Counted from the stretch's first letter, positions 18,073 through 50,702 are shown. The stretch: 64,000 nucleotides of DNA from a virus (IMGVR_UViG_3300011116_000655:1-64000); one strand, 5' to 3'. The notes: generated by a model not told the origin, from the sequence alone. Program-made: numbers and translations.

Positions 18073-18093
18073 TTACCAATCCCTCCAAGACAG

Positions 18094-22044: not shown

Positions 22045-22055
22045 GTTACCTCAAA

Positions 22056-22103
22056 CAAAAAACTACGCAGGATCATTATAACCCTGCGTAGTCAAAAGAG
22101 CAA
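22056..22103 (-). promoter_or_regulatory. Terminator with promoter -10 in the loop
   Basis: Perfect 10-bp stem ACTACGCAGG/CCTGCGTAGT (22062-22071 and 22083-22092) followed by T5 ends the 22127-22696 transcript. Its loop contains consensus TATAAT (22075-22080), with TTGCTC 17 bases upstream (22098-22103). One element both ends one transcript and starts the next. Confidence 0.7.
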
Positions 22104-22126
22104 CCTTTATTAATTTATTTTATTTA

Positions 22127-22696
22127 TCAGACTAATCTACGAATAACACGTTTGAGGACTTCATTTATAACTTCATCATCTGTGAGGATTTCAATACCTT
22201 CTTCAAGTTTTTCATCCTCTTCGGCGGGTTCGGCAGGTTCATCACCCCCTTCATCGCCTCCCTCCATGCCGAGATCCATTTCCTCTTCTTCGCCTTCGCC
22301 ACCCATTTCATCAGCTAATCCAAGGTCTTGAAGGGCATCCATTACTGCATCTTTAATAACACTTTTTAAATCTTCAACTGAATCAAACTCTACTTCACCT
22401 TCGCCTTCCATACCTTCTTCTGGTTCCATGACAGAAGGCTCTTCCATATCCATATCTGCACCATCACCCATTTCGCCCATGCCCATGCCCATGCCTTCTG
22501 GTTCTTCCATTGCGTCCATACCCATTTCTTGAGGTTCGTCTTTACGGGCATAACTGGCACCGCCATACATTTCTTTTAATACTTTTTTACTTTTCTTATT
22601 TTCTGTAAGGAAATTTTCTGTTGCATTTTTGTCAATGTTAGCAAGTTTCATCCACTTTGCTACTTGACTTTCTGATAATAAAGGTTTCTTGCTCAT
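22127..22696 (-). CDS. Very acidic Met/Gly/Glu-rich protein
   Basis: 189 aa. N-terminal helix L-L-S-E-S-Q-V-A-K-W-M-K-L-A-N, then a low-complexity central region of Met, Gly, Glu and Asp (about 55-165), and a basic C-terminal helix (V-I-N-E-V-L-K-R-V-I-R-R-L-V). Scaffolding-like or capsid-associated acidic proteins look like this, and the S-E-S-Q start resembles tags at 30101 and 50664. Function inferred only. An ACTATTTA motif lies 21 bases upstream of the start. Confidence 0.65.
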   Translation of the reverse strand: MSKKPLLSESQVAKWMKLANIDKNATENFLTENKKSKKVLKEMYGGASYARKDEPQEMGMDAMEEPEGMGMGMGEMGDGADMDMEEPSVMEPEEGMEGEGEVEFDSVEDLKSVIKDAVMDALQDLGLADEMGGEGEEEEMDLGMEGGDEGGDEPAEPAEEDEKLEEGIEILTDDEVINEVLKRVIRRLV

Positions 22697-22716
22697 TTGT
22701 ATTGCTCCTACACGAA

Positions 22717-22723
22717 TAAATAG
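22717..22723 (-). promoter_or_regulatory. ACTATTTA putative late promoter
   Basis: ACACTATTTATTCGTGT on the minus strand: the motif sits in a small hairpin (ACAC/GTGT), followed by AGGAG and the ATG of the acidic protein gene. Confidence 0.5.
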
Positions 22724-22754
22724 TGTCTAAATTATAAAAATACTTTTTTTTTGA

Positions 22755-23072
22755 TTAATCTTCAATATTTTCTAATATATCAAAAATATTTTCTATTTCA
22801 TCCTTATTAAGAGCAAAGTCTTTTTCAAGTTCTTTGCCTTCTTTAATTAGTTTAATTCTTCCTTTTAACCTAATTTTTGGATAATTTATAGTTTTTTTAT
22901 ACTCAAACCACCATTTCATAAATTCATCGTTATCGTCTAAATAAGCATCCACTACTGTTCTAAGGAATTTAGCACCATTAGTTTGGTCATACCTTAATTT
23001 AGCAACAAGTTGCGCTGCCTTTGCAGTTGGCATACGAAACGATAATTTAGTTAATTCGTCTTTAGGTTCCAT
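22755..23072 (-). CDS. Ribbon-helix-helix-like protein
   Basis: 105 aa. T-K-L-S-F-R-M-P-T-A-K-A-A-Q-L-V-A-K followed by A-K-F-L-R-T-V-V-D-A-Y-L fits a beta strand plus two helices, the Arc/CopG-type DNA-binding pattern. The second half is charged (Y-P-K-I-R-L-K-G-R-I-K-L). It starts at the last base of the IMPDH-like gene, so it could regulate its own operon; inference. Confidence 0.6.
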   Translation of the reverse strand: MEPKDELTKLSFRMPTAKAAQLVAKLRYDQTNGAKFLRTVVDAYLDDNDEFMKWWFEYKKTINYPKIRLKGRIKLIKEGKELEKDFALNKDEIENIFDILENIED

Positions 23073-24103
23073 TAGTTTCTGTGTAGGATATGTGTGTCGG
23101 ATTCTCTAGTTCCAGCAGAAGTTTGTTTAATGAATTTTGCTTTGGCCCACAGTTCGCGAATACTTCTAGCTCCAGAGTAAGATAAGCCAGAACGAATACC
23201 GTTTTCAAGTTGATCGATAATCTCTGATGTGCTTCCTTTGTATGGAATAGTAGTAGAGATTCCTTCAAGTGATGAAGTTTTACCTCTCCAATCAATTTGT
23301 GCATCTTTTGAAGCCATGCCACGATAAACTTTGCGTTGTTTACCATCTTCTGAAACAAGAATTTGCCCTGGCGTATCAGAGCTTCCAGCGAGAACTGAAC
23401 CAAGCATAGCAAAATCACAGCCCACGCCAAGAGCTTTAACAATGTCACCAGAATTTCTAATACCGCCGTCCGCAATAACCGTAACATTTTTAAAAGTTTT
23501 AGAACACTCCATTACACTATCCAATGAAGGAACTCCGTGACCAGTTTGAATACGAGTAGAGCAAATGCTGCCCCCACCAATACCAACACGAATTGAATTA
23601 GCTCCCCAATCAGCCAAATGCTCAATTCCTTCAAGAGTTGCAACATTTCCAGCCATAAAGTGGGGTCCATTTCCAAGTTTCTCCCTAAGAGTAATTAGGG
23701 CTTTCTTCATCAAAATGTGGTCACCATGAGCAACATCTAAACAAAGAATTTTAACACCACCTTCTACAAGGGCTTCTGCTCTTTCAAGATAATCACCTGT
23801 AATACCAATAGCACAACCAAATTTATGATTATAGATTTCTTGTGATACTGCTTCTGCTATTTCACATTGTCTTTGAATTGTGTTGTATCTGTGAATAATA
23901 CCAAGACCACCCATTTTGCCAATTGTGATAGCCATTTTATCTTCACAGACAGTATCCATAGGCGATGCAATAAGAGGCAGGTTAAACCAAAAACCTCTTT
24001 CTTCATCTAACCAATTACCTATACTTACTTCTTTGCGTGATTCAATATCACTATACTGTGGAACAAGTAATACATCATCGTATGTAAGAGCTTCACGAAA
24101 CAT
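23072..24103 (-). CDS. IMP dehydrogenase / GMP reductase family enzyme
   Basis: 343 aa TIM barrel without CBS domains (bacterial GuaB is about 490). T-Y-D-D-V-L-L-V-P at the start, S-P-M-D-T-V-C, M-G-G-L-G-I-I-H, D-V-A-H-G-D, the catalytic loop G-G-G-S-I-C-S-T-R (Cys181), I-A-D-G-G-I, Y-R-G-M-A-S and I-P-Y-K-G are all present. It either oxidises IMP to XMP or reduces GMP to IMP; the sequence alone does not settle which. It is close to adenylosuccinate synthetase (25185-26207), so both arms of the IMP branch point are phage-encoded. Confidence 0.9.
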   Translation of the reverse strand: MFREALTYDDVLLVPQYSDIESRKEVSIGNWLDEERGFWFNLPLIASPMDTVCEDKMAITIGKMGGLGIIHRYNTIQRQCEIAEAVSQEIYNHKFGCAIGITGDYLERAEALVEGGVKILCLDVAHGDHILMKKALITLREKLGNGPHFMAGNVATLEGIEHLADWGANSIRVGIGGGSICSTRIQTGHGVPSLDSVMECSKTFKNVTVIADGGIRNSGDIVKALGVGCDFAMLGSVLAGSSDTPGQILVSEDGKQRKVYRGMASKDAQIDWRGKTSSLEGISTTIPYKGSTSEIIDQLENGIRSGLSYSGARSIRELWAKAKFIKQTSAGTRESDTHILHRN

Positions 24104-24291
24104 TAATCCTCCACTTCATTTACAAGCTTTACAAGATAATCCATTACTTGCTTATCTGCAACATAATAGTTATCACCAGCTTTAAATCCGTTACCCAATA
24201 ATTGCATAAGTCTAAGATCTGGATTTCTTTTCCACGCAATAGAAAGAAACTCTAGCATGTTATTAATTTCAATAAGTCTATCTATTTTCAT
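24103..24291 (-). CDS. Hypothetical 62 aa protein
   Basis: MKIDRLIEINNMLEF; W-K-R-N-P-D-L-R-L-M-Q-L-L-G-N and D-N-Y-Y-V-A-D are conserved-looking features seen in small bacterial and phage proteins of unknown role. It overlaps the thioredoxin-like gene by 14 bases. Confidence 0.65.
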   Translation of the reverse strand: MKIDRLIEINNMLEFLSIAWKRNPDLRLMQLLGNGFKAGDNYYVADKQVMDYLVKLVNEVED

Positions 24292-24655
24292 TTAGAAAGT
24301 TCTCCAAATTTTGAATTATGTACTCTTTTGAATAACCAGAATCTGGATCTGCATTTGTTTCTGGGTATTGAACGTTATAAATGTCGTCTTTATAAATGAT
24401 AAAGATTTCTGGTACTCCATCAATGTTAAACAATTTAAACAACTTTCTTTGAGTTTTTGAATTTATGTTACCAAAATAAAAATTATCTTTGTATTGCTCT
24501 GCTATTTCATTAAAGATTGGCTTTAAAGCCTTACATAAATAACAAGTATTGCTTGTAAATTTAATCACATAAGGTTTATCAGATTTAGTGATTTCGTTAA
24601 AATCTTCTAAACCTAATTCTTTAACGATAGAATTATTTTTTATTACTATTTTCAT
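24278..24655 (-). CDS. Thioredoxin-like protein
   Basis: 125 aa. Active site T-C-Y-L-C-K (Cys38/Cys41) after the F-T-S-N beta strand, cis-Pro in G-V-P-E-I-F, and the helix L-E-N-F-L-N at the end. The C-Y-L-C centre differs from C-G-P-C thioredoxins. A dithiol carrier for the class II ribonucleotide reductase (37757-40162) is a natural guess, not shown. Confidence 0.85.
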   Translation of the reverse strand: MKIVIKNNSIVKELGLEDFNEITKSDKPYVIKFTSNTCYLCKALKPIFNEIAEQYKDNFYFGNINSKTQRKLFKLFNIDGVPEIFIIYKDDIYNVQYPETNADPDSGYSKEYIIQNLENFLNENR

Positions 24656-24947
24656 AATAAGTTATCAACCTTTCTGTGTACCATTTAATTTTTTTAAGGT
24701 CTTCTAGTGGAGTACCTTTATGTTTATAACGCATAATGTATTTAATTATATTAGCGGTACAAAAAGCTTCACCCAATCCTTGATCTTCAATAACTGTAAT
24801 TGCCTCAAGCTCACCAATATTGTAATGTTTTGGATGATCAACCATTTCTGTTTTGTTATTAGATAACTTTTTTAATTGGTCTTTATCCATAGCAGAACAA
24901 ACATTTAAGTAGTTTACCGTTCTTGGAAAATATTCATAATCACTCAT
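24633..24947 (-). CDS. DUF3310-type phage protein
   Basis: 104 aa from the ATG at 24947 (AAGGAGG site; longer starts overlap the gene above). M-V-D-H-P-K-H-Y-N, G-E-L-E-A-I-T-V-I-E, A-N-I-I-K-Y-I-M-R-Y-K-H-K-G and W-Y-T-E-R-L match DUF3310, sometimes labelled nucleotide kinase in phages without experimental proof. Confidence 0.8.
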   Translation of the reverse strand: MSDYEYFPRTVNYLNVCSAMDKDQLKKLSNNKTEMVDHPKHYNIGELEAITVIEDQGLGEAFCTANIIKYIMRYKHKGTPLEDLKKIKWYTERLITYYENSNKK

Positions 24948-25188
24948 TTTCAGCCTCCTTAATTGTATCCTCTGCCCATGCTTGAACATCTTTATAGCAA
25001 GTAGGACAGAAAAGCTTGACCTGTTTGCTTTCATTAAACACCATAACAGACCATGAAAAGGCTTGTTCTCTATTATTTTTATCATATGACGAATTACAAC
25101 CAGTACACTTCTGGGGTAATGCATCAAATAACATAGTTTTTTCTTGAATTAATTTGTTTTGCTTTCTAATTTTGCGTGCTGAACTCAT
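24940..25188 (-). CDS. Small zinc-ribbon-like protein
   Basis: 82 aa with C-T-G-C and C-P-T-C pairs separated by about 30 residues, an expected zinc site, and a basic N-terminus (S-A-R-K-I-R-K-Q-N-K). Coupled to purA above by ATGA overlap. Function unknown. Confidence 0.65.
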   Translation of the reverse strand: MSSARKIRKQNKLIQEKTMLFDALPQKCTGCNSSYDKNNREQAFSWSVMVFNESKQVKLFCPTCYKDVQAWAEDTIKEAENE

Positions 25189-26207
25189 ACTTCAAATCCT
25201 TCAATAGTTTCTGGGTTTCCACTAAAGTAGATATACTCTAGCAAATCAGAACTATTATAACAAACAAAATCAATAAAGTCTTGTAATTTACCAAATGTTT
25301 CAAATTCAATTAGTTTGCCCTCATGGTATGCTTTAAATTGTCCAACTTCTTTTAAAATATCACACTTGTTAATAATTAAGTGTGTTGCTCCACCAATTTT
25401 AATTGCTTCGCATAGTTTATCAAGATTAAGCCAATTTACTTTTCTTCGCCTTCCTGTAGTTACACCATATTCTTTTCCTAAATCTCCAATCTTCATTAAA
25501 ATTGGATCTTCAAGTAAAGTTTCTGGGAACAAAGGGTCAGTACCAGAACGAGTATCATAAATCTTAGCACAAGCAAAGACTTTATTAATTTTTTGTGGAG
25601 CAAACCCTAGTGAACAAGCTGCATAAGGTAAGCACTCGCTAGAGGTAACAAATGGATAATTGCCATAATTAATATCAAGGTGATAACCCTGTGCGCCCTC
25701 ACAAAGAATATTCCCGTATAACTCTTCTTCTAATAGGAAGGTTTTATTTATTGTGCTATCTTTGGCAAGTAAACCCTTTCTGGCGGCTTTGTCTCGATAT
25801 GCTGGTGCTATACCTTGTGAAGTTGTGCCAAGGTGCCCTAGAGTAGATTTATCTTCTGCAATATGTTCGTCCGTAACAATGTGAGCTAAAGGATGAATTT
25901 TTACAAGAGAGGTATCTAAGCCACCCATAGCTAAGTCTGCTATTTCTTTATAGAAGGAGTTTAGGTTTACAACACAGTTTGGTCCAATAACAGATTTAAT
26001 ACCAAAGAAAATACCAGATGGAACAATGTGTGTAGCGTACTTTTTGCCATTATGGTAAATTGTATGACCAGCATTACTTCCACCATTCCAACGACATACA
26101 AAGTTATAATGGTTTGGTTTTGACGCTAAGAAATGCGTAATTTTTCCTTTGCCTTCATCACCCCATGAAGCACCATAAACAATGTCAACATCTTTAATAA
26201 TTCCCAT
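25185..26207 (-). CDS. purA: Adenylosuccinate synthetase
   Basis: 340 aa from the ATG at 26207 (GGAG site; the frame upstream to 26348 is another gene's shadow). Short, archaeal-like length compared with about 430 in bacteria. V-Y-G-A-S-W-G-D-E-G-K-G-K (general-base Asp17), G-G-S-N-A-G-H-T-I (His48), G-T-T-S-Q-G-I, E-G-A-Q-G and T-T-G-R-R-R are visible. It joins IMP and aspartate using GTP. PurZ enzymes of 2-aminoadenine phages are short relatives that lack this Asp; its presence argues for ordinary PurA (or a PurZ0-like form). Confidence 0.9.
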   Translation of the reverse strand: MGIIKDVDIVYGASWGDEGKGKITHFLASKPNHYNFVCRWNGGSNAGHTIYHNGKKYATHIVPSGIFFGIKSVIGPNCVVNLNSFYKEIADLAMGGLDTSLVKIHPLAHIVTDEHIAEDKSTLGHLGTTSQGIAPAYRDKAARKGLLAKDSTINKTFLLEEELYGNILCEGAQGYHLDINYGNYPFVTSSECLPYAACSLGFAPQKINKVFACAKIYDTRSGTDPLFPETLLEDPILMKIGDLGKEYGVTTGRRRKVNWLNLDKLCEAIKIGGATHLIINKCDILKEVGQFKAYHEGKLIEFETFGKLQDFIDFVCYNSSDLLEYIYFSGNPETIEGFEV

Positions 26208-26442
26208 CTTTAATAACTCCAAGTAGTTCAAAGGCAAAGAAACGTTCCAAGTATCCTGTTTCAAACACAAATACTTCGTGGAATTCCACAGACTCTGAAA
26301 CGTCAAAACCTCTATCATCATAAAGGTTTCCAAAATACATGCCGTCAATAATCATATTATCAACAGCATATCTAACAATGTCACCTTCTTGTGGCTTAGC
26401 GTCCTGTAGAACCGAAACCACCACTTCCTCTATCAGTCTCAC
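26194..26442 (-). CDS. Small EGDIVRY-type protein
   Basis: Up to 82 aa; the real start may be a GTG near 26424 after GAGGAAG, because the ATG at 26442 lies 46 bases inside the dUTPase gene. The core P-Q-E-G-D-I-V-R-Y matches the 44427-44657 protein (P-Q-E-G-D-L-V-W-I) and the array family. Function unknown. Confidence 0.6.
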   Translation of the reverse strand: MRLIEEVVVSVLQDAKPQEGDIVRYAVDNMIIDGMYFGNLYDDRGFDVSESVEFHEVFVFETGYLERFFAFELLGVIKDGNY

Positions 26443-26821
26443 TCAATGACTCCACAAACTCAAATTGGTCAGTAGAAATCTTCTCTGGGATTGCTTGTGC
26501 TACCCTATCACCAATCTCCCAATCAAAATGAAGCTTAGAAGTATTGTGAAGAATCACTTTCCATTCTCCTCTGTAACTAGAGTCTACAACCCCTGCAAGT
26601 ACATTAATACCAGCTTTAGCAGCAAGTCCAGAACGTGGTGCAATTCGCATGTAATACTCTGGACTAAAAGATGTACAAATACCTACTGGCACAATTGCAC
26701 GTTCTCCTGGGCCTATTGAACCTTCTTCTGTAGCATAAAGATCAAATCCAGCGTTACCCTCTGCTCTTTGAGTAAGGTTGATAAATCCATTCATTTTAAT
26801 AACTTTTAGGTTAAGACTCAT
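26396..26821 (-). CDS. dut: dUTPase
   Basis: 141 aa trimeric-type dUTP diphosphatase. All five motifs are in order: G-N-A-G-F-D-L-Y-A, A-P-R-S-G-L-A, V-V-D-S-S-Y-R-G-E-W, I-G-D-R-V-A-Q and R-G-S-G-G-F-G-S-T-G. It hydrolyses dUTP to dUMP, feeding ThyX and keeping uracil out of DNA. Confidence 0.95.
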   Translation of the reverse strand: MSLNLKVIKMNGFINLTQRAEGNAGFDLYATEEGSIGPGERAIVPVGICTSFSPEYYMRIAPRSGLAAKAGINVLAGVVDSSYRGEWKVILHNTSKLHFDWEIGDRVAQAIPEKISTDQFEFVESLSETDRGSGGFGSTGR

Positions 26822-26832
26822 TTTTTCCTCTT

Positions 26833-27462
26833 TTAAATTTCAATAGTTAGTGGAGCATTATTTGGTTTATACGCTCTATCGCAAGTAGATGCATTAATGT
26901 AACACGTATCTCCAATAGTTTCAATTCCATATCCTTCATGAATGTGACCAAATGCATGATACTTTGGTTTGATGCGATGCACTACTTCGTCTAGCAGTAT
27001 AGGGCAACCAGCATTAATGTTTTCATAAGTTACATCACGAATCGTGCTTGGTGGTCCATGAGTAATTAAAAGATCAATGTTATCTGGTATTTGTTTCCAA
27101 TACTCTTTTAGTTGGTCATCATCTGCATTAAAAGCCCAATTATAAAAGCGAGGTTGCCAAGGAGAACCATAAATTCTAAGTCCTCCAACAGACATCATAC
27201 TATCTTGAAGATACCAAATGTCTTTGTGTTGTCCAAGCAACATACGGGCTTCATCTTGTCTTTTATAAAAAAGCCAATCGTGATTACCAGCAATCATAAT
27301 TTTAGTTTTTGCTGGTTGTCTGCTAAACCATTCAAGTACACGACTTACTTCAACAAAAGAGCCATGTGAAGTCATATCCCCACAATGAATCAAAACATCA
27401 GTAGGCTCAATCTTCACAAGATCGTGCCTATTGTGTGTATCAGAAATAAAAGTAATTTTCAT
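26833..27462 (-). CDS. Calcineurin-like metallophosphoesterase
   Basis: 209 aa from the ATG at 27462, overlapping the lipoprotein stop as TAATG. Metal ligands in order: F-I-S-D-T-H, H-C-G-D-M, A-G-N-H-D-W, I-T-H-G-P and G-H-I-H-E-G. Substrate unknown (phosphodiester or phosphoprotein); a role in DNA or RNA end processing is possible. Confidence 0.85.
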   Translation of the reverse strand: MKITFISDTHNRHDLVKIEPTDVLIHCGDMTSHGSFVEVSRVLEWFSRQPAKTKIMIAGNHDWLFYKRQDEARMLLGQHKDIWYLQDSMMSVGGLRIYGSPWQPRFYNWAFNADDDQLKEYWKQIPDNIDLLITHGPPSTIRDVTYENINAGCPILLDEVVHRIKPKYHAFGHIHEGYGIETIGDTCYINASTCDRAYKPNNAPLTIEI

Positions 27463-28334
27463 TAGATTCCTGTAACAGTTGTAGCTGAACCTCTCCAATT
27501 TATTTCACAGATAGGTTCATAAAGCCCTTCGCTATTAATGTTTGATGTATCTGTCCATTCAAGAACACCACCAACATAAATGTTTACGGTAACATCATTT
27601 CTTCCATTATAAACAGAACCAGGATAATCATGAACATAAACAGTATAGATTCCTGCATATGGTGAATCAATGTTGATGTTTTCTGGTCCTGTTCCTGGGA
27701 TATCGTCAAGGTCAAGAATTGGATTATCAGAAGGACCAGAAGAACCCCATTCTAATCCACTTGTACAATTTGCATAGTAACAATCTGTAAAGTAGTCAGT
27801 TAGTGTACCAAATGGTGCTAAAAGATGCAAGTCCATATCGTCACCAGAATTAGTCCAGAACATTTCAATCCATAGACCATCACCAGCAAGTGCATTTAAA
27901 GTTGCATAACAAGGTTCAGAGACTTGTCCAATCTCATTAGTAACAATTAATTGACCTACATACTCTCCTGCTAAATCTGGCGTAAACGAACGTCGGTTAG
28001 CACTACCCGCTGGCATATCAATTAAATTACCTGCTGGTGCTGAATATAAAGTCCATTCATAATTTGTAATTGCATAACCAGCAGTATCGTATGAAGTATT
28101 GCCGATCCAATCTGCTGAACCGTAAATTGCATCAATGTTTGCAGGGTCCACAGAACAAACAGCAATTGGTTGTCCTAATGGCGGTGCGGTATCCTCAATA
28201 GCAGTATCAATAATTGCAGTATCGGCAGTATCATCTGGAATAATAGATGTATCTACAAACCCACTATCGTATGGATCTGGTTTTTTGTTAACCTCATACT
28301 CAGTACAGGCTAACATAAGTAAAGTTGTAATCAT
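27462..28334 (-). CDS. Putative lipoprotein with PKD-like and DUF2135-like domains
   Basis: 290 aa. A very short lipobox start (M-I-T-T-L-L-M-L-A-C, Cys10) lacks the usual basic residues. Residues 18-55 are a D/T-rich linker; about 55-150 look like a PKD/Ig-type beta domain (N-Y-E-W-T-L-Y-S-A-P); from 153 on, E-M-F-W-T-N-S-G-D-D-M-D-L-H-L-L matches the S-D-x-D-L-H-L pattern of secreted DUF2135-like domains. Unlike other genes here; probably host-derived. Possible roles: surface alteration or superinfection exclusion. GGGAG ribosome site, ACTATTTA 25 bases upstream. Confidence 0.7.
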   Translation of the reverse strand: MITTLLMLACTEYEVNKKPDPYDSGFVDTSIIPDDTADTAIIDTAIEDTAPPLGQPIAVCSVDPANIDAIYGSADWIGNTSYDTAGYAITNYEWTLYSAPAGNLIDMPAGSANRRSFTPDLAGEYVGQLIVTNEIGQVSEPCYATLNALAGDGLWIEMFWTNSGDDMDLHLLAPFGTLTDYFTDCYYANCTSGLEWGSSGPSDNPILDLDDIPGTGPENINIDSPYAGIYTVYVHDYPGSVYNGRNDVTVNIYVGGVLEWTDTSNINSEGLYEPICEINWRGSATTVTGI

Positions 28335-28351
28335 TTGTAAACTCCCAAGTA

Positions 28352-29269
28352 CTAAATAGAGTGCAATTCACGATACTTGAATAGTGCAAGCTCTTTCATT
28401 TTTGCTTCAATCATAATGTCTACATCGTGACCATAAGTGTCAATATAACGATAAACATAGTCAGAATGTGCCTGTACAGGACACTTAATCTTCTGTTCCT
28501 CGCAACGAGACTCAGAATAGTGAACAACAGGCTTTACATCACCCCAAGTAGATACGGCAATAGCAAGCGCATCAGAATGAGACATACCCCCACTATGAAG
28601 TGAATGGTGGTGATAATCAAAAACAATCGGAATTGAGGTTCGCTTGAAAATGAAATTGTATAGTTCTTCCACCGTGTATAGAGAAGGCTTATCGTCATTT
28701 TCAAGAGTGAACCTACACTTGATGTTCTCTGGAACAATCTCCCAATTACGGAGAAACTGCTCAATAGCTGCTGTCTTATTCTTGTAAGTTGCGCCAACAT
28801 GGATGTTAATTTTGTTGTAATGTGTGTTAGAAAGCCCCATCAAATCCATAATTTCTGCGTGAACAGTCAAATCCTTGATAGTATTTGTAGTTACTGCCTC
28901 ATTAGAAGAAGTAAGTTTGTTGAACGGGCCAGGATGAAAGCTAAGTCGTTGGTTATTAGCAATAGCATAATCACCACACTTACGGAGCAAAGCAGAAACG
29001 GTTTGAATGTTTGGAAGATTTCTGATACCGTATTCAGATGCCCAAGGGAACATATCGGAAGACATACGGTAAAAGTTAATACCGTTTTGTGTATTCCATT
29101 CAAGAATAGTATAAAGGTCTTTTAGATTCTGCTCAATAAGTTCAGCAGCATAATTGATACCCTTTGCATCAAAAGTCTTACGAATCATTGTACGATTCGT
29201 TGTAACACGGGTCTTGGTAGATTCAGAAAGACCCAAATTAATGCAAGCATAGCCAAGGTTAGTAGACAA
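28352..29269 (-). CDS. uvsE: UV-damage endonuclease (UvsE/UVDE)
   Basis: 305 aa TIM-barrel nuclease, TTG start with GGAGGG 6 bases upstream. Family pattern: L-G-Y-A-C-I-N-L at the start, F-Y-R-M-S-S-D-M-F-P-W, L-S-F-H-P-G-P, I-N-I-H-V-G, L-E-N-D-D, D-Y-H-H-H, H-Y-S-E-S-R and E-A-K-M-K-E-L. It nicks DNA 5' to UV photoproducts. Its own promoter is folded into a terminator hairpin (29276-29316). Confidence 0.92.
   Translation of the reverse strand: MSTNLGYACINLGLSESTKTRVTTNRTMIRKTFDAKGINYAAELIEQNLKDLYTILEWNTQNGINFYRMSSDMFPWASEYGIRNLPNIQTVSALLRKCGDYAIANNQRLSFHPGPFNKLTSSNEAVTTNTIKDLTVHAEIMDLMGLSNTHYNKINIHVGATYKNKTAAIEQFLRNWEIVPENIKCRFTLENDDKPSLYTVEELYNFIFKRTSIPIVFDYHHHSLHSGGMSHSDALAIAVSTWGDVKPVVHYSESRCEEQKIKCPVQAHSDYVYRYIDTYGHDVDIMIEAKMKELALFKYRELHSI
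28353..28359 (-). promoter_or_regulatory. CTATTTA putative late promoter of lipoprotein gene
   Basis: ACTCTATTTAGTACTT on the minus strand, overlapping the stop region of uvsE; the GGGAG site and ATG follow. Confidence 0.45.
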
Positions 29270-29275
29270 GAGAAA

Positions 29276-29316
29276 CCCTCCAAGGACATACTATCCAAGG
29301 AGGGTCATAGTGTCAA
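29276..29316 (-). promoter_or_regulatory. Promoter-in-hairpin element of uvsE
   Basis: TTGACA (29311-29316), 17 nt, TAGTAT (29288-29293). The spacer contains CCCTCC and GGA, which pair with TCC and GGAGGG (29276-29281); the -10 is in the loop and GGAGGG is the uvsE ribosome site. The TGA in the -35 is the stop of the 29313-30101 gene. Read-through RNA would fold and hide the ribosome site; RNA from this promoter would not. Confidence 0.7.
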
Positions 29317-30101
29317 TGGTTTCTTTTCTTATTTTCTCTCATACCTTTATCAAGTGCAAGCGTTCCGTATTGTTGTCCACCTATTCTTGCTCGTAATGCA
29401 TCCATACCAGCATCTTGAGAAACTGGGCCTAAAGATGCTTGCTGAGAACGACTTGATTGTGTAGAAGCCACATTTTGTGGATTTGTTGGTTCTGGAACTT
29501 TTATGTTCAATACATTTTCGTATTTTTGAATTTCACTTCTATCTAATGTAGGACCAGAAACTTTTCTCATTTCGTGCGCCTCAGAAGAAAATTGTTGTCC
29601 TTTTTCTGCTCTTTTTATAGAAAGAGGAAATACTTCTATAGTATACCCTTTATCATATCTTTTAGCATGGTTGTAGTAAAAGACTATTACTTTTTTTGTT
29701 TTCATTTCAGAAATGTATGTTTCTAATCTTTGTATAGCTAGTTGTTTATTTTCATCATTTTTTGCAATTTTTATTTTGTTGTTGTAGTCATCTAAATCAA
29801 ACTCATAATCTATTAAAAATTCTCTTAATGGTAAAGGAATTAAGTTTGCTTGTTTTTTTTGAATCATTTCTCTAAATTTTGGAAAAAGATTTATAATTTG
29901 AGCACCTGTTACGGATAACAATTCTTCTTTTTCTCCAAGTTCTGAACCTGCTTCACTTACTTCGACTTCCGTATCTATAACTGGTTGGTTTCTTGGTGAT
30001 CCATAAATTGGACCTCTTTCAAAAGGGCTAATTTCATTTAGCAATCCAACAAGTTCTTCTCTAATAACTTGTCTAAGTTGTGATTCTGTTAATCTTTTCA
30101 T
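29313..30101 (-). CDS. Tagged hypothetical 262 aa protein
   Basis: N-terminal M-K-R-L-T-E-S-Q-L-R-Q-V-I-R-E-E-L resembles the starts of the 50032-50664 and 22127-22696 proteins and may be a targeting tag. The remainder is mixed: a Lys-rich alpha/beta part (90-190) and a Gln/Ser-rich tail. The ribosome site AAGGAA is the 3' arm of a perfect hairpin (30108-30139). Function unknown. Confidence 0.6.
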   Translation of the reverse strand: MKRLTESQLRQVIREELVGLLNEISPFERGPIYGSPRNQPVIDTEVEVSEAGSELGEKEELLSVTGAQIINLFPKFREMIQKKQANLIPLPLREFLIDYEFDLDDYNNKIKIAKNDENKQLAIQRLETYISEMKTKKVIVFYYNHAKRYDKGYTIEVFPLSIKRAEKGQQFSSEAHEMRKVSGPTLDRSEIQKYENVLNIKVPEPTNPQNVASTQSSRSQQASLGPVSQDAGMDALRARIGGQQYGTLALDKGMRENKKRNH

Positions 30102-30107
30102 AAAAAT

Positions 30108-30139
30108 GGGTTCCTTACCAATTAAATAGTAAGGAACCC
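30108..30139 (-). promoter_or_regulatory. Terminator hairpin with ACTATTTA in loop
   Basis: Minus strand GGGTTCCTTAC, 10-nt loop TATTTAATTG, GTAAGGAACCC, then ATTTTT and the ATG of the next gene. 11-bp perfect stem: it can end the dnaE transcript. The loop holds CTATTTA (30123-30129); TTGGCA lies 18 bases upstream as a possible -35; AAGGAA in the 3' arm is the ribosome site. Confidence 0.7.
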
Positions 30140-30143
30140 TTAA

Positions 30144-36927: not shown

Positions 36928-36929
36928 TT

Positions 36930-37187: not shown

Positions 37188-37468
37188 TAATCCTCCTTAG
37201 TTACGGTTGCTAAAACATGATTTTCTTGAATTAGATAATGTGTTTGATTATCTATTTCTATTTCTTCCAACATATGTGTAGGAACCAAAATTAAGCTTTC
37301 TGGTTCATACTTCTCTGTCGAATCCTCTATAACACGGACAACCTTGTATGGCTTCTCTTTTTCTTTATAATCTGTTGGTAGAACGAAAGCGTGTTGTGGT
37401 TGCAATACTGCTTTAACCGCTAGTTGTTCAACAAGCAAGTATTTATTTCTTGGAGACAAATAATACAT
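37187..37468 (-). CDS. GroES-like co-chaperonin candidate
   Basis: 93 aa, the length of Cpn10. N-K-Y-L-L-V-E-Q-L at the start, an extended mobile-loop-like region (about 18-35), Y-K-V-V-R-V-I, S-L-I-L-V-P-T-H-M-L-E-E-I and the closing Y-L-I-Q-E-N-H-V-L-A-T-V fit the GroES barrel pattern (compare phage gp31-type proteins). Sequence similarity is weak, so this is inference. It would partner the GroEL at 18112-19677. Confidence 0.55.
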   Translation of the reverse strand: MYYLSPRNKYLLVEQLAVKAVLQPQHAFVLPTDYKEKEKPYKVVRVIEDSTEKYEPESLILVPTHMLEEIEIDNQTHYLIQENHVLATVTKED

Positions 37469-37692
37469 TATACACCTAATACCTTTTTGTGAGTTTCATA
37501 TTCTTCTTTTGATAAGAAATTTGTTGTTCTTGCATTACAATACTTACAATAAAAATCTACCTGTATAGAATTGTTAAATTTTGTTTCTATATTTCCTGTT
37601 GGTAACCAATAATGAGTTCTACTATCTGGTGAAGGGAAACATTTTTTATCTTGTTCTTGTCTTGCAACTAAATGATTACATTTTGTAGACAT
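37468..37692 (-). CDS. Small zinc-finger-like protein
   Basis: 74 aa from the ATG at 37692 directly after AGGAGGTTTTTT; a TTG at 37710 is rejected because it precedes the ribosome site. C-N-H ... Y-C-K-Y-C ... T-H provides possible zinc ligands. Function unknown. Confidence 0.65.
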   Translation of the reverse strand: MSTKCNHLVARQEQDKKCFPSPDSRTHYWLPTGNIETKFNNSIQVDFYCKYCNARTTNFLSKEEYETHKKVLGV

Positions 37693-37698
37693 AAAAAA

Positions 37699-37747
37699 CC
37701 TCCTAATCAATTATTATTAAAATAATCAATTAGGAGGCTTATGTCAA
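37699..37747 (-). promoter_or_regulatory. Promoter-in-terminator element after nrdJ
   Basis: TTGACA (37742-37747), 17 nt, TATTTT (37719-37724). CCTCCTAAT (spacer, 37729-37737) pairs with ATTAGGAGG (37699-37707), 9 bp, followed by T6 and the ATG. The hairpin can end the nrdJ transcript; its 3' arm is the ribosome site of the next gene and its loop contains the -10. Confidence 0.75.
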
Positions 37748-37756
37748 GTTATTTTA

Positions 37757-41546: not shown

Positions 41547-41581
41547 GTTAGCACCTGTTAGTGATTAAAGGATAATACGGT

Positions 41582-42598
41582 TTACCAAGCTCTGCAAGAC
41601 CAATAACGAGCTTTTGTTTTTGGTCCTGGGTTATCGCAATTATGTCTTGCTCTAAAAGATTTACGTCTTCCTGGTATGTTCTTTTTAATCTTCATGTTCT
41701 TATCGCCAAAGTTTACTTTTTTAACATTACCAGTTTTTGGATCTCGTACATAAACTTTGGATTTTTTAACATCACCTTTCATTGGTTTATTAAGGGTTAC
41801 TGTGCGACCTTGGTATTTTGCTTCTTGAATTATTGTTCTCTGACTTTCCAATAACTCTTGAAGGCAACCAGCGCAAACAAGTGTTCCATCGTCTAAATGG
41901 GCATCATCGTATTCTGTTGATTCAGAAACTACTTGCGCTCCGCTTTGTTGTAGTTCTTGACCAGTATCTGTAATAAACTTTGTTAAATCTCCTACTTTTG
42001 CTAAAGTAAGAGAATTTTTTAAATGTGTTACAAGTTCAAGTGCGTCTTTAAGTGAAACTAAGTTATTAGTCATACGTGCATTTGCTAAATTTGCTAAAAT
42101 CATACTAGACAAAACAATAGTAGCAGATGCACCAGTAAATCTATTAAAACCTTTTGTTAAATCACCACCACCTAATTTAGTAAGACCTTTTTGTGCCGCA
42201 GACAAAACAGCTTCAGTTGTTTTATAAATTGGTCCTGGTTTTTTTGCCTCTTGAATTTGAGTAAGCAATAATTTAGCATTTTGTGCAGCTTCAATTGGAT
42301 CATCATCTTGTAATACATTTTTCAACAAATAATCTATTGCTGCATCAATTTCTTTTTTAGAAATAAATGCTTGTAACTGACGGATAACACTTGGGTCACT
42401 AATAGACTTTCTTGTGTTATCAGATGGTCCTGGTTTCACAACTTTTTGGTTACTGAGAGCAATAATTTTTTGGATTGGGGTTTGTTGAGGAGCAACAGCT
42501 TGTGGTTGTTGTTGTGGGGCGGCTTGTTGTTCATTTAAATAAGTTCTCCAACCTTCCATTAAAAGTTGTTGATTTTGAAATGATGAAAATTTAGTCAT
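41582..42598 (-). CDS. Tagged protein with basic Cys-containing C-terminal module
   Basis: 338 aa. N-terminal L-M-E-G-W-R-T-Y-L-N-E resembles the other tags. A Gln/Pro-rich linker (23-45) and a helical middle follow. The last 75 residues (K-V-Y-V-R-D-P-K-T-G-N-V-K-K-V, R-R-K-S-F-R-A-R-H-N-C, K-A-R-Y-W-S-C-R) are a basic two-Cys module common in large marine phages, probably DNA-binding. May be an internal head protein (inference). Confidence 0.6.
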   Translation of the reverse strand: MTKFSSFQNQQLLMEGWRTYLNEQQAAPQQQPQAVAPQQTPIQKIIALSNQKVVKPGPSDNTRKSISDPSVIRQLQAFISKKEIDAAIDYLLKNVLQDDDPIEAAQNAKLLLTQIQEAKKPGPIYKTTEAVLSAAQKGLTKLGGGDLTKGFNRFTGASATIVLSSMILANLANARMTNNLVSLKDALELVTHLKNSLTLAKVGDLTKFITDTGQELQQSGAQVVSESTEYDDAHLDDGTLVCAGCLQELLESQRTIIQEAKYQGRTVTLNKPMKGDVKKSKVYVRDPKTGNVKKVNFGDKNMKIKKNIPGRRKSFRARHNCDNPGPKTKARYWSCRAW

Positions 42599-42605
42599 AA
42601 CTTAA

Positions 42606-43478
42606 TTAGTCCTTTTTCTTCTTTTTAGTCCATGAAATTGGCTTAGATGATTGTTTTTTTCTTAATGGACCTTTACCAGCAGATTTACATTGTGCTTTTG
42701 TTGGTCTACAAGCTGGATACTTGCCACCACTATCTGCGGAGCTTCTACCACATGGACCACCAGTTCTACAATTTATCCAACCTTTTCCTTTATTACGAGC
42801 AAACCAACCATGAAGTCCTTGTTCTTTTTCTTTAGAGAAGTTTGGTTTGTATGGCTTTTTCTTTTTGGCTTCATCTAATTCTTCTTCAATTATTTCTATG
42901 TCACCAAGGTCTATTTCTTCATTCTTTTTTTTTCTGCCTTGACAATGTGCCCTTTGAGAAAAACCTTTTGGATTTTTGCAATTGATAGAACGTTTGTACT
43001 TTTCAGACCATTCTTCTTCAAGTACCTCTATTTCTTCTAAAACTAGTTGTTGATCTATTTCTTCATCTGTTGCATTCTCAGAAATACCTTTCCAGATCTT
43101 TCCTTGACGGCATTTAACAACAGCACCAGAAGCATAAGCAGAAGGCCAAACATCATATTTACGTTTGGCAATTCTTGTGCAACGATCACCACTTTTTTTC
43201 TTTTTTGCTTCTTGAAGATTTGAAAGAAATTGTTGTATTTTTGGTTTAATGTCAGCAGCAGTAATGCCTTTTTGTTTAGCACTTGCAACAACATTTTTTA
43301 TGTCATTTTCTATTGCATCAACTGCTATCTGTATTTCATTATCTTTTTTTTCTGCTGGAGATAAATCTTCTGGCTTTACTTTAGCTTGTTGATTTGTGTT
43401 TGTAGTTTGTTGTACAGAAGCTGTATCTGCTTCTTGCAAAAATTGTTTCCAACTCTCTAAAATTAAATTATATTTCAT
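42606..43478 (-). CDS. Tagged protein with three Cys-rich modules (DUF5872-like)
   Basis: 290 aa from ATG 43478 (TTAGAGG site; upstream residues to 43505 are not tag-like). Tag: M-K-Y-N-L-I-L-E-S-W-K-Q-F-L-Q-E. Modules: C-T-R-I-A-K-R-K-Y-D-V-W-P-S-A-Y-A-S-G (about 98-130), I-N-C-K-N-P-K-G-F-S-Q-R-A-H-C (about 163), and G-L-H-G-W-F-A-R-N-K-G-K-G-W then C-R-T-G-G-P-C-G-R (about 225-265). Highly basic end. Likely nucleic-acid binding, perhaps packaged. Confidence 0.65.
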   Translation of the reverse strand: MKYNLILESWKQFLQEADTASVQQTTNTNQQAKVKPEDLSPAEKKDNEIQIAVDAIENDIKNVVASAKQKGITAADIKPKIQQFLSNLQEAKKKKSGDRCTRIAKRKYDVWPSAYASGAVVKCRQGKIWKGISENATDEEIDQQLVLEEIEVLEEEWSEKYKRSINCKNPKGFSQRAHCQGRKKKNEEIDLGDIEIIEEELDEAKKKKPYKPNFSKEKEQGLHGWFARNKGKGWINCRTGGPCGRSSADSGGKYPACRPTKAQCKSAGKGPLRKKQSSKPISWTKKKKKD

Positions 43479-43482
43479 ACCT

Positions 43483-44439
43483 CTAAGTAGTATTGTTAGC
43501 CACAATTTTCTTAAAACAAGTCATTAAAGATGAAAAATCTACAACACCAAAACCATCTTGCATTGACATACGCCTAAATTCAAGTTGGTTTAACTGTGGT
43601 TCAAAGTTCTCAACAAGTTCATCAATCTGTTGTTTTGTTTGATAGGAGATTTGTGGAGAGGAAAGCTGCATGATGCGATAGTTATCTCTAATCACCTCAA
43701 AAGATGATGCGATACTTTCAAAAGCTTTACCTTCCTTATCTTTACAAAATTCTGTAACATCATTAGGAAGATAAGACTTCTCTTCAACAAGCATAGGAAT
43801 TTTCTTAGCTATTGTAGCCATTCCAACACCTTTAACACCTTTAAGATTATCGCTATCATCACCAGCTATTGCTCTTGCTAAAGCAAAGTTGTTAGGATGA
43901 ACACCATACTTTTCAATAATTTTAGATACATTCAGCAGTTCTTCTTGAATAGGACGATAAAGAATTGTTTTACCATCAATAAGCTGAATAAAATCTTTGT
44001 CTGATGACACAATTACCTTTTGCCAACGCTTATAATGTTGATGGTTCACAACATAAGAAATAAGATCATCTGCTTCAATGTTTGGATACAGTAGTTGAAT
44101 CACAGGCATTTGATTAAAATACTCTGCAACTCTTGTTTGTTGCCAAATTCTATTAGCAATCTCTTCGTTCTCTGTAAGATTACGAACATCACGATTAAGA
44201 CGAAGAGGGTTTCTACCATCTTTGTAATTTGAATTCATAATTTTACGTTTTTTGGAACCACCTTCACCATCCCAACAAACATATATAAGATCTGGGTTTA
44301 TAGTATTGCATAGCTTCTGCATAATTTTAAGAAAGCCAACAACACCACCTACAGGTTGACCGTTTGGTGAAAGAGTAGGATTTGTTATGTATGCACGCAA
44401 ATATTGATTGTTTGCGTCTACCACCATCATTCTTGGCAT
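43483..44439 (-). CDS. 5'-3' exonuclease (FEN/T4 RNase H-like)
   Basis: 318 aa from ATG 44439 (GGAGG site). Metal-site residues: M-V-V-D-A-N-N, W-D-G-E-G-G-S-K-K-R, I-E-A-D-D-L-I, S-S-D-K-D-F-I-Q-L-I, G-D-D-S-D-N-L-K-G-V-K-G-V-G (helix-hairpin-helix). Removes RNA primers and flaps during lagging-strand synthesis. Sits upstream of the SSB/recombinase genes in the same strand block. Confidence 0.92.
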   Translation of the reverse strand: MPRMMVVDANNQYLRAYITNPTLSPNGQPVGGVVGFLKIMQKLCNTINPDLIYVCWDGEGGSKKRKIMNSNYKDGRNPLRLNRDVRNLTENEEIANRIWQQTRVAEYFNQMPVIQLLYPNIEADDLISYVVNHQHYKRWQKVIVSSDKDFIQLIDGKTILYRPIQEELLNVSKIIEKYGVHPNNFALARAIAGDDSDNLKGVKGVGMATIAKKIPMLVEEKSYLPNDVTEFCKDKEGKAFESIASSFEVIRDNYRIMQLSSPQISYQTKQQIDELVENFEPQLNQLEFRRMSMQDGFGVVDFSSLMTCFKKIVANNTT

Positions 44440-44657
44440 TTTAAATCCTCCATTAGAAAATAATGACATTGCTCGTCTTCCATAGTCCAAACATAGCACA
44501 ATTCTGGGTATGCTGTTACAACAACACCCAGAATACTAAATTCAGAGATTAATGATAATTGATTATTTTTACGATGAATAATAAGTTGTGAAGTATAAGA
44601 CTTTGCGTACCTATTTATCCATACCAAATCGCCTTCTTGTGGTTGAGTGTTCATCAC
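44427..44657 (-). CDS. Small QEGDLVW-type protein
   Basis: 76 aa (start at 44657 or 44654). P-Q-E-G-D-L-V-W-I-N-R-Y is similar to the 26194-26442 protein; Tyr/Trp-rich end. Overlaps both neighbours. Function unknown. Confidence 0.6.
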   Translation of the reverse strand: MMNTQPQEGDLVWINRYAKSYTSQLIIHRKNNQLSLISEFSILGVVVTAYPELCYVWTMEDEQCHYFLMEDLKCQE

Positions 44658-44997
44658 ATGCTGTCTCTATGTTATAGCCCCACTTTGAAACTTTTGCAGG
44701 GGCACCGCAAAACTCACAAATAGTATAAGACATTTTCTCTGCGTCTGCAATTATACTATAAACATAATTAACATCAGTAGGATCTATCTCTTCAATAGAG
44801 ATGTAATAGCGAAGACCACCAAACTTTTGCTTAACTTGAACAGCATGGATATAGCTAGATTCTGGGTACTTGTTGTTTATTACTTCAATCTTTGCAGAAA
44901 CATCATCAATAAGATGCTTCCAACCTTCATTGCATTCAAAATAGCCAAGAACTTTAAAAGTCTTAGGATACTTTTCCAGTATTTCAGTTTCCCACAT
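44611..44997 (-). CDS. Conserved phage protein with Cys pair
   Basis: 128 aa from ATG 44997 (AAGGAGAAAC site). V-Q-V-K-Q-K-F-G-G-L-R-Y-Y-I is a pattern shared by many phage proteins of unknown role; A-E-K-M-S-Y-T-I-C-E-F-C-G-A-P-A follows. C-D-E-H near the end may complete a zinc site. Confidence 0.7.
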   Translation of the reverse strand: MWETEILEKYPKTFKVLGYFECNEGWKHLIDDVSAKIEVINNKYPESSYIHAVQVKQKFGGLRYYISIEEIDPTDVNYVYSIIADAEKMSYTICEFCGAPAKVSKWGYNIETACDEHSTTRRRFGMDK

Positions 44998-45292
44998 TTT
45001 GTTTCTCCTTAAGCACAATATCGCCTACTGCTTTAATTGTGTTTAGTGCAATGTCGCTAATAGAAAATGGCTTACCACTATTTTGCAGTTCAAAAATAGT
45101 ATTCATCATAACATCGTAAGATACAGCCATAGCATAATGAAAAGCACCAAGTTCTTCATTAGCTTGAGTTTGATTTACTTTACGAGTTGAAGTAGATCCG
45201 TTTTTCTTGTATACAACCCAAAAACCACTTTCTGCATTTTCCCAAGGATAACGGAATTCTTCGTATGTGTATGGCTTATAGCTATTACTCAT
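44984..45292 (-). CDS. Hypothetical 102 aa protein
   Basis: MSNSYKPYTYEEFRYPWEN; F-W-V-V-Y-K-K-N-G-S then helical. Overlaps the following gene by 14 bases and the deaminase by 8. Function unknown. Confidence 0.65.
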   Translation of the reverse strand: MSNSYKPYTYEEFRYPWENAESGFWVVYKKNGSTSTRKVNQTQANEELGAFHYAMAVSYDVMMNTIFELQNSGKPFSISDIALNTIKAVGDIVLKEKQNVGN

Positions 45293-45707
45293 TGTAAATC
45301 CTCATGGACTCAATCTCACCGTTCTCGTTAGAGTATACTACCTTCTTAACACCAACAAACTGCATAGCAGCCTCGCACATAGGACAAGGCTTAGAGTTAC
45401 GAAGGCAACCATCACGACCAACGCGAACAACATAAATAGTTGCACCCTCAGTAATAGAACGATCAAGACCAAGGATAGCACCAATCTCAGCATGAACAGT
45501 AGCATGACCACGCTGCTTCTTACTATCGCGGAATCGATTAGCCCAAGCCTTATACTTGTTCTTATTACAAGAAGTGTTCAAAACAGTACCACCGCGAACA
45601 AGCACGGCACCATGCTTATACTCCTTAAAATCGGTCTGCATAGCAATTCGTGCAGCAAGATCAATGTAACGCTGCTTCTTCTTGGACAACTTCGGGTCAG
45701 ACTCCAT
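45285..45707 (-). CDS. dCMP/cytidine deaminase family protein
   Basis: 140 aa from ATG 45707 (GGAGAG site). Zinc motif V-H-A-E at 71-74 with P-C-P-M-C at 107-111, as in deoxycytidylate deaminases. Makes dUMP from dCMP for ThyX, or edits cytidine; dCMP deamination fits the gene set best. Confidence 0.88.
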   Translation of the reverse strand: MESDPKLSKKKQRYIDLAARIAMQTDFKEYKHGAVLVRGGTVLNTSCNKNKYKAWANRFRDSKKQRGHATVHAEIGAILGLDRSITEGATIYVVRVGRDGCLRNSKPCPMCEAAMQFVGVKKVVYSNENGEIESMRIYNE

Positions 45708-45731
45708 GATGTTCTTCTCTCCAACACATAG

Positions 45732-45771
45732 ATAGTAACAAAGCCCCATAGGGAAGTCAACCCTATGGAGC
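45732..45771 (-). promoter_or_regulatory. Terminator with promoter -35 in the loop
   Basis: 11-bp stem GCTCCATAGGG/CCCTATGGGGC after the recombinase gene; the loop is TTGACTT. TTGACT (45755-45760) is followed after 17 bases by TACTAT (45732-45737), just past the terminator T-tract. Ends uvsX transcription and starts the deaminase transcript. Confidence 0.75.
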
Positions 45772-45791
45772 CTGTTTCTTTTTACTTACTT

Positions 45792-46916
45792 TTAGTCTTC
45801 GCTTTCTATGTTGTAATAATTTGAAGCGTTACCAGTTTGCTTATCAAATTTGGTAATAAGTTCTTCTTCCACAATACTTAAAACTGCCTTTCTAAAATCT
45901 TCGTTATTTAATTCGTTAGGAAAGTCTGCTGATCTAAATCTCTTTTCTGTCCCATCAAGAAGTGTAATTGTCCACCATGCACCACTTGAAGCTCTATCAG
46001 ATTTAGAAAGAATGTCAAGCCAAGCTTCATGATCTGATACTTCTACTCTCTCACCACCCCATAGTAGTTTAAGTGAGCATTCTCTACCCTCTGTTCCAAA
46101 ACGTGATTTTTTAAGAACACATTTAGTTTCTGAACCAATTCTAAATCCTGTTGGTGATACAACATAACTTGCTTTACTTTTCTTTGGAGTAAGCCAAATT
46201 CTAAGTGAATAAGCGTATGAGAGTGCTTTACCGCCTGGAGTTATAAATGGGTTTACAAGCATTTCTGTGTGTGCTGTTGGACCCATTACAATGTTTTGTT
46301 TTAACTGATTCAAAACAAGGAAAGAACTTCTTTTGTTTGCAATTGGTTGAATAAGCTTTGCAAGACCCTTTGACATAATTCTTGGTTTTACAGCCATTGA
46401 AGATTGTGGATTAAAGTCACCTTCAAGGTCTGCAAGCGATGGAGTAAATGCAAATGAGTCAAGAATGAATAGAAATCTATCACCTTCTCCAAGAAGTTGT
46501 TCGATAGTTTCAAGAACAAACTCAATATTAATTGCTTGTGTGTAAATAATCTCACCTACATTACATCCTGCTTTTGCAAGAAAGGATGGATCTAGAGCAG
46601 ATTCTGAGTCAAAGTAAACTACAGTCATGCCCATTTTCTGGGCATTAGCAGCAATCTGAGCAGCAAAGTAAGATTTACCAGAAGCTTCAATACCAGCTAG
46701 TTCTGTAATACGACCTACAGGAATACCAGCTTTCTTACCTCTACAAATAATTGAATCTAATACGTCAGAACCTGTTGGAATCCATTCAACTACTTCTGAT
46801 GGGTTTTGTTCAAGAAGATCAAAAGATACTTCAATACCTGCTTTTTTGTTAATTGCATCTCTCATTTGTGCAATAGATAATTTACCATTTGTTGTTGTTT
46901 GAGTTTTTTTAGCCAT
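45792..46916 (-). CDS. RecA/UvsX-like recombinase
   Basis: 374 aa from ATG 46916 (AAGGATAC site). Walker A G-I-E-A-S-G-K-S at 75-82; Y-F-D-S-E-S-A; Walker B-type L-F-I-L-D-S-F; L-V-L-N-Q-L-K-Q. Catalyses strand exchange; UvsX-type fits the neighbouring gp32-like gene. Confidence 0.93.
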   Translation of the reverse strand: MAKKTQTTTNGKLSIAQMRDAINKKAGIEVSFDLLEQNPSEVVEWIPTGSDVLDSIICRGKKAGIPVGRITELAGIEASGKSYFAAQIAANAQKMGMTVVYFDSESALDPSFLAKAGCNVGEIIYTQAINIEFVLETIEQLLGEGDRFLFILDSFAFTPSLADLEGDFNPQSSMAVKPRIMSKGLAKLIQPIANKRSSFLVLNQLKQNIVMGPTAHTEMLVNPFITPGGKALSYAYSLRIWLTPKKSKASYVVSPTGFRIGSETKCVLKKSRFGTEGRECSLKLLWGGERVEVSDHEAWLDILSKSDRASSGAWWTITLLDGTEKRFRSADFPNELNNEDFRKAVLSIVEEELITKFDKQTGNASNYYNIESED

Positions 46917-46938
46917 TTGTATCCTTATGTTAAATGAA

Positions 46939-46982
46939 AACGGGTGTACCATAAAGATACACCCGTTCTGTTATTTAGTCAA
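46939..46982 (-). promoter_or_regulatory. Terminator with promoter -10 in the loop (before uvsX)
   Basis: AACGGGTGTA/TACACCCGTT, 10-bp stem (46939-46948 and 46958-46967), then TTTC, after the SSB gene. TTGACT (46977-46982), 17 nt, TATCTT (46954-46959) at the loop. Ends ssb transcription and starts uvsX. Confidence 0.75.
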
Positions 46983-50664: not shown

Positions 50665-50695
50665 TATAAAATTTTCCTTTAATTTACTTACACAA

Positions 50696-50702
50696 TAAAT
50701 AG
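50696..50702 (-). promoter_or_regulatory. ACTATTTA putative late promoter
   Basis: TTAACTATTTATTGTG on the minus strand, next to the stop of the PolA-like gene and upstream of the 50032-50664 gene; no -35. Confidence 0.45.

Follow-up and report, generated by a model that had tools for sequence, protein, structure and literature searches.

Taken from an IMG/VR virus record of 77.9 kb, the window, that is, the whole stretch of viral DNA analysed here, is 64 kb long, and its genes are almost all located on the minus strand. It codes for a DnaE-like DNA polymerase, UvsX, SSB, a B12-type ribonucleotide reductase (RNR), thymidylate synthase, dCMP deaminase, a UV endonuclease, GroEL, and nine tRNAs. 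The GroEL-like chaperonin, which is phage-encoded, is located at 18112–19677, and the tRNA genes (Asn, Tyr, Glu, Thr, Lys, two Leu, Ile, and Arg) lie among small genes at 2129–4055. The adenylosuccinate synthetase homologue at 25185–26348 matches phrog_1211, which is annotated as the 2-aminoadenine type; the homologues in loci L225 and L139 of the relatives have a hairpin promoter in front. The Rfam models matching the window at the gathering score are the nine tRNAs only, with no riboswitch, leader, or attenuator family.

No DNA-level relative of the window was found among 50,697 phage records, and the top identities of its proteins to those of phage records are approximately 45% or lower. 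The protein relatives are uncultured viruses, and the near relative G001 is a 184-kb record. The relatives code for a gp55-like late sigma factor, for which the match in G001 reaches only E 3e-4. The hairpin-promoter design described below occurs in a family of uncultured bacterial viruses from aquatic habitats.

Organization of the junction hairpins

The initial annotation proposed that, at seven places, the hairpin after one minus-strand gene contains a promoter for the next. All seven hairpins (22056, 29276, 30108, 37699, 45732, 46939, and 2897) are present on the minus strand, to which all the features in this section belong. Each is positioned at a co-directional gene junction and has a promoter-like box in or at its loop; however, the boxes at 30108 and 2897, taken for −10 elements in the initial annotation, are copies of the octamer ACTATTTA and not sigma-70 −10 elements. 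The 3′ arm had been assigned as the ribosome site of the next gene at 2897, 29276, 30108, and 37699, and the SD is indeed in the 3′ arm at all four. The sites can be divided into three groups.

In group (i), formed by 29276 and 37699, the promoter has the form TTGACA-N17-TAnnnT, and the spacer pairs across the −10 with the SD of the next gene. The junction at 29269–29316 precedes uvsE (28352–29269), a UV damage endonuclease gene of the UvdE family (PF03851 in the orthologue L384), which has the most conserved element upstream. The −35 TTGACA (29316–29311) is separated by N17 from the −10 TAGTAT (29293–29288), which is in the loop. The 5′ arm ACCCTCC (29305–29299) lies within the spacer, the 3′ arm contains the SD GGAGG (29281–29275), and the TTG start is at 29269. 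The junction downstream of the B12-type RNR gene (37692–37747) has the −35 TTGACA at 37747–37742, an N17 spacer, and the −10 TATTTT at 37724–37719, placed at the inner stem and loop. Its 5′ arm, with the anti-SD CCTCC, spans 37737–37721, and its 3′ arm, with AGGAGG, spans 37715–37699; a U tract begins at 37698, and the ATG is at 37692.

Group (ii) consists of 30108 and 2897, where an SD-hiding hairpin carries ACTATTTA in its loop. Downstream of the DNA polymerase gene (30101–30139), the hairpin GGGTTCCTTAC...GTAAGGAACCC has ACTATTTA at 30130–30123 in the loop and the SD AAGGA in the 3′ arm, followed by an ATTTTT tail and the ATG at 30101. At 2895–2926, the hairpin GTTTCTCCTAC/GTAGGAGAAAC has ACTATTTA at 2917–2910 in the loop, the SD AGGAG in the 3′ arm, and the ATG at 2895, without a U tract.

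In group (iii), the hairpin overlaps a promoter box (the −10 at 22056 and 46939, the −35 at 45732), and the SD is outside the stem. The SSB–uvsX junction (46916–46982) has the −35 TTGACT at 46982–46977, an N17 spacer, and the −10 TATCTT at 46959–46954 at the stem/loop edge; the arms ACGGGTGTA (46966–46958) and TACACCCGT (46948–46940) are followed by a U tract (46940–46932), an SD at 46926, and the ATG at 46916. At the junction between uvsX and the dCMP deaminase gene (45707–45772), the hairpin is formed by 45772–45761 and 45753–45742, with the −35 TTGACT (45760–45755) in the loop; after N17, the −10 TACTAT (45737–45732) lies downstream of the hairpin, with the SD at 45722 and the ATG at 45707. 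The deaminase gene (45285–45707) is, in relatives, the second most frequent gene behind hairpin promoters. At 22044–22103, the hairpin ACTACGCAGG (22092–22083)/CCTGCGTAGT (22071–22062) carries a perfect TATAAT (22080–22075) in its loop, preceded at N17 by a weak −35, TTGCTC (22103–22098), which is nonetheless conserved; the U tract (22062–22053), the SD (22052), which is outside the stem, and the ATG (22044) follow.

Good U tracts are present at 22056, 37699, and 46939. The tract is partial at 30108 and weak at both 29276 and 45732, and 2897 has none, so the label of terminator used in the initial annotation is not apt for every site. Three starts in the ORF list (45749, 46952, and 37710) fall within hairpins, and the likely starts are 45707, 46916, and 37692. 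A further hairpin at 15000–15037 (AAGCCGCCAAGA/TCTTGGCGGTTTTCTTG) has no promoter boxes and resembles an ordinary terminator.

Complementarity of promoter spacers to gene leaders

Under a strict definition, hairpin promoters are found at 6 of 27 window junctions and in none of 100 dinucleotide-shuffled sets; 22056 is excluded from this count because its −35 falls outside the −35 rule. A consensus scan of 28–48 kb detected 59 promoter hexamer pairs against 62.7 expected, which is no excess, and an excess of terminators (21 against 11.3). The initial annotation had called for a scan of related phages for loop-promoter hairpins. Such hairpins are significantly enriched relative to shuffles, but the comparison with loop swapping, which gave 7.9 promoter matches among near-clade hairpins against 14 observed at the 10-of-12 level, is weak because the near-clade loops are alike. 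The hairpin-first test was replaced by a promoter-first spacer test.

For the promoter-first set, every TTGAC-N16..18-TA promoter with an SD and an open frame behind it was taken from 292 loci of relatives, in which gene starts were assigned mechanically; this gave 554 unique promoters. Of the 554, 91 have a spacer with strong complementarity to the leader between the −10 and the start, where approximately 10 are expected by spacer swapping. The near clade contributes 48 of 142 (swap mean 4.4, maximum 10) and the distant loci 43 of 412 (mean 5.4, maximum 11). Complementarity to the leader is highest at the spacer itself (15%) and amounts to about 1% when other upstream offsets are compared. 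The most frequent start of the 3′ arm is 6–10 nt past the −10, which is the expected transcript start, and the arm includes the SD in 57 of the 91 elements. At the core of the design, the 17 nt between the −35 and −10 are complementary to the leader of the gene itself, usually to its SD.

A pattern of fixed register that requires an anti-SD in the spacer had 99 matches in IMG/VR compared to nine for a control pentamer; the unique matches have longer stems than the controls, and U tracts follow 43 of 65 compared to 0 of 7. When 85,000 bacterial and archaeal genomes were scanned, the same pattern had 86 matches, most of which show neither stem extension nor a U tract. Among the bacterial cases, spacer-to-SD pairing with stems of 14–20 bp is present before AAA_14/DUF4143 (Selenomonas, Anaerovibrio) and RNase_T (Megasphaera) genes in L457, L461, L446, L447, L427, and L440, where the U tract is mostly weak or missing. 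MazE-like genes are also among those behind the few long-stem cases, and none of the long-stem cases among the 86 pattern matches is at a transposase gene. No spacer hairpin was found in T4, HTVC008M, P-SSM2, SP-15, and a huge phage, a comparison of little power with only nine TTGAC promoters in 250 kb.

Hairpin promoters in the related sequences are located behind a same-strand gene ending within 150 nt in 86 of 87 cases, compared to 213 of 330 (65%) of other promoters (p 2.5e-13, which, like the p value given below, overstates the strength because the sequences are related and not independent). The median distance from the upstream stop codon to the −35 is 8 nt for hairpin promoters. The genes behind them encode UvdE endonuclease, dCMP deaminase, a short ORF after RNR, 5′–3′ exonuclease, UvsX, pyrimidine-dimer glycosylase, the adenylosuccinate synthetase homologue, and dNMP kinase. 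Since these genes serve DNA metabolism and repair, the putative lock is not confined to late genes, as it is in T4.

Conservation and covariation of the arms

The TTGAC box, N17, and the hairpin are kept at the uvsE junctions of 31 of 31 orthologues, and the arms change together. Swapping spacers among the uvsE orthologues lowers the mean stem score from 27.1 to 20.3 (maximum 22.3), and in the set downstream of RNR the swap lowers it from 21.3 to 13.7 (maximum 17.2). Almost all spacer positions show several Watson–Crick pair types, and the 37699 orthologues L230, L240, L243, L246, and L276 have compensatory arm changes. The arm sequences differ between the sites of one genome and covary between orthologues. 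In the uvsX set (46939), the swapped score is 22.7 compared to 23.6 observed; because the arms hardly vary, covariation lends this site no support. Downstream of uvsX in distant phages (L106, L115, and L138), a perfect dyad covers the −10, with the SD not in the stem and no U tract.

Predicted folding of read-through and own-promoter RNA

In RNA read through from the upstream gene, the predicted unpaired fraction of the SD is 0.00 at 2897, 29276, 30108, and 37699. The SD is predicted not to be sequestered at 45732 and 46939, and no change is predicted at 22056. For hairpin promoters, the median predicted accessibility of the SD is 0.00 in read-through RNA and 0.53 in own-promoter RNA, whereas the corresponding values for non-hairpin promoters are 0.56 and 0.61. 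At 29276, the SD of the own-promoter RNA is predicted to be still largely paired (0.24 unpaired).

The motif ACTATTTA

The octamer ACTATTTA is a separate recurrent phage motif, distinct from the sigma-70 −10. Of its 40 copies in the 184-kb G001, 19 are located before an SD with a start, compared to 0–3 for eight permuted octamers, and on this basis we read it as the late promoter of this phage group. Within the window, ACTATTTA is also located 15–35 nt before gene starts without a hairpin (8118–8150, 18073–18111, 22697–22754, 50665–50702, and 62647–62682), and these copies are probable late promoters. Several proteins encoded behind ACTATTTA (window 29313–30101 and 50032–50664; L079; L409 and L411 of G001) share an N-terminal peptide of the MKxxTExQLRxxIREEL type, which looks like a tag common to late proteins.

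Proposed mechanism and alternative explanations

We propose, with a probability of about 0.7, that a promoter and a read-through lock are fused at each site into one compact element. From the arrangement of the elements we infer promoter activity, transcript start sites, termination, and a translational switch. In the main form, spacer DNA would provide the 5′ arm, the −10 the loop, and the SD-bearing leader the 3′ arm, while a U tract, where present, would occupy the gap between the SD and the start. A polymerase entering from the upstream gene would produce RNA with both arms, which would fold and hide the SD; where a U tract follows, some polymerases would terminate as well. RNA from the internal promoter would start at or just before the 3′ arm and, having no 5′ arm, would not fold and would be translated. 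As own-promoter RNA alone would be translatable, the downstream gene would be expressed solely on the schedule of its own promoter. Host-like sigma-70 promoters would time DNA-metabolism and repair genes, and the ACTATTTA late motif would time late genes sited among early ones. At 22056, 45732, and 46939, the stem does not include the SD, and there the hairpin more likely acts simply as a terminator that overlaps the promoter.

The layout, statistics, covariation, and predicted folding were read directly from the sequence. Spacer–leader complementarity, covariation, arm placement, predicted SD accessibility, and co-directional position argue well for two parts of the read-through scheme in the initial annotation, namely the hiding of the SD and the missing 5′ arm of own-promoter RNA; termination, its third part, fits only some of the sites and some members of the wider set. 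A U run directly 3′ of the SD is present in 18 of 57 hairpin promoters compared to 8 of 306 others (p 1.6e-10, related sequences), an excess owed partly to A–U pairs at the stem base. This enrichment of a U tract between SD and start suggests that many members probably also terminate, and supports termination as a common add-on.

The same enrichment directly 3′ of the stem would be expected if the hairpins were ordinary intrinsic terminators overlapping the next promoter in short intergenic space, with SD hiding as a by-product. The U tracts of 22056 and 46939, where the SD is outside the stem, and the nearly constant position of hairpin promoters behind a co-directional gene also agree with this explanation, which we nevertheless regard as unlikely. 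The SD itself is paired in 57 of 91 elements, 20 of which have no U tract, and the start codon follows immediately 3′ of the stem in L170 and L308. Because several members (2897, L170, L276, and the same L308) keep the stem without a U tract, the hiding of the SD appears to be the more general function. Furthermore, the hairpins begin only about 15–20 nt past the upstream stop codon, which is within the range of ribosome repression in E. coli, where a trailing ribosome represses a nearby terminator and termination is maximal only beyond about 27 nt from the stop (PMC4824070). At such a short distance from a translated stop, the trailing ribosome would partly suppress termination, and a second lock on the SD would therefore be sensible.

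There is very little to recommend reading the dyads as DNA operators, with a repressor bound to an inverted repeat over the −10, even though many copies have the −10 at the centre of the dyad, and in a few distant ones (L106, L115, and L138) the SD is outside the stem and no U tract follows. The arms vary by site and compensate between orthologues while the −35 and −10 stay, and an operator accounts for neither the co-directional upstream gene nor the U tract. This reading was rejected on account of the covarying arms and the lack of an operator sequence common to the sites. It is just as improbable that the promoters are chance matches in AT-rich loops of hairpins that only terminate transcription or protect the 3′ ends of upstream mRNA. 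The number of hexamer pairs across 28–48 kb, which does not exceed that in shuffled sequence, is what chance would give, but the promoter pairs at junctions far exceed it, TTGAC-N17 is invariant in the 31 uvsE orthologues, and ACTATTTA precedes gene starts far more often than permuted octamers do.

Relation to known systems

The proposed read-through lock has precedents in phage T4 (e, soc, 49, I-TevI/II/III, and segB) and in mobE of Aeh1, where a hairpin hides the RBS and transcripts from adjacent late promoters lack its 5′ side (PMC3014915, PMC2988022). These precedents demonstrate that a lock of this kind works. As in T4, upstream-initiated RNA is predicted to fold over the RBS, and internal-promoter RNA without the 5′ strand would be translated; the 5′ arm, located in the −35/−10 spacer or upstream of the late motif, would hence be absent from own-promoter RNA. 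Their layout suggests that 30108 and 2897 work like the T4 late-promoter hairpins, with the difference that the late promoter of soc is just 5′ of the hairpin, whereas here the putative late promoter is in the loop. Unlike in T4, the TTGAC-type sites are not of the late (gp55) type, and most elements are host-like sigma-70 (early) promoters. Their spacer serves as anti-SD, with the −10 in the loop; a terminator U tract is present in many of them, and the design recurs at several DNA-metabolism and repair genes across many phages.

The elements resemble intrinsic (Rho-independent) terminators in that a GC-rich stem separates co-directional genes, with a U tract behind it at several sites. Unlike such terminators, the elements include the promoter and often also the SD of the next gene, and several members have no U tract. 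In the protection of IS10 and IS50 against read-through, RNA from outside adopts a fold that hides the RBS, and the RNA from the element's own promoter has no 5′ arm. The phage elements share this folding of outside RNA over the RBS, as predicted here, and the missing 5′ arm of own-promoter RNA. However, IS10 and IS50 control a transposase gene of a mobile element, whereas the phage elements precede resident phage genes, nest the promoter boxes in the hairpin, and possibly terminate.

The statement of the initial annotation that no named element has this design overstated the novelty, as the RBS-hiding hairpins of T4 are known. In the searchable literature, of which coverage is partial, no description was found of a terminator hairpin that encloses a promoter −10 and at the same time covers the following RBS, nor of the sigma-70 version with nested promoter boxes and an optional terminator. 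Relative to T4, what appears to be new is the use of early sigma-70 promoters, together with the nesting of the boxes in the hairpin and the recurrence of this layout.

Implications

We consider it somewhat more probable than an even chance that the elements represent a widespread class in uncultured aquatic phages, in which a sigma-70 promoter, an intrinsic terminator, and an RBS lock are combined into one element of 45–60 bp. Each part would have two jobs, with the spacer as 5′ arm, the −10 as loop, the SD as 3′ arm, and the U tract as the SD-to-start spacer, and the whole would serve early DNA repair and nucleotide genes as a dual-lock insulator that does not depend on late transcription. 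A promoter spacer complementary to the gene's SD provides a simple computable signature for scans of phage genomes, in which gene callers may put starts inside such hairpins, and the element could offer a ready-made compact insulator for synthetic operons. The late-gene lock of T4 would be one case of a broader principle that includes early sigma-70 promoters, and tightly packed co-directional genes could each keep their own timing without wider spacing.
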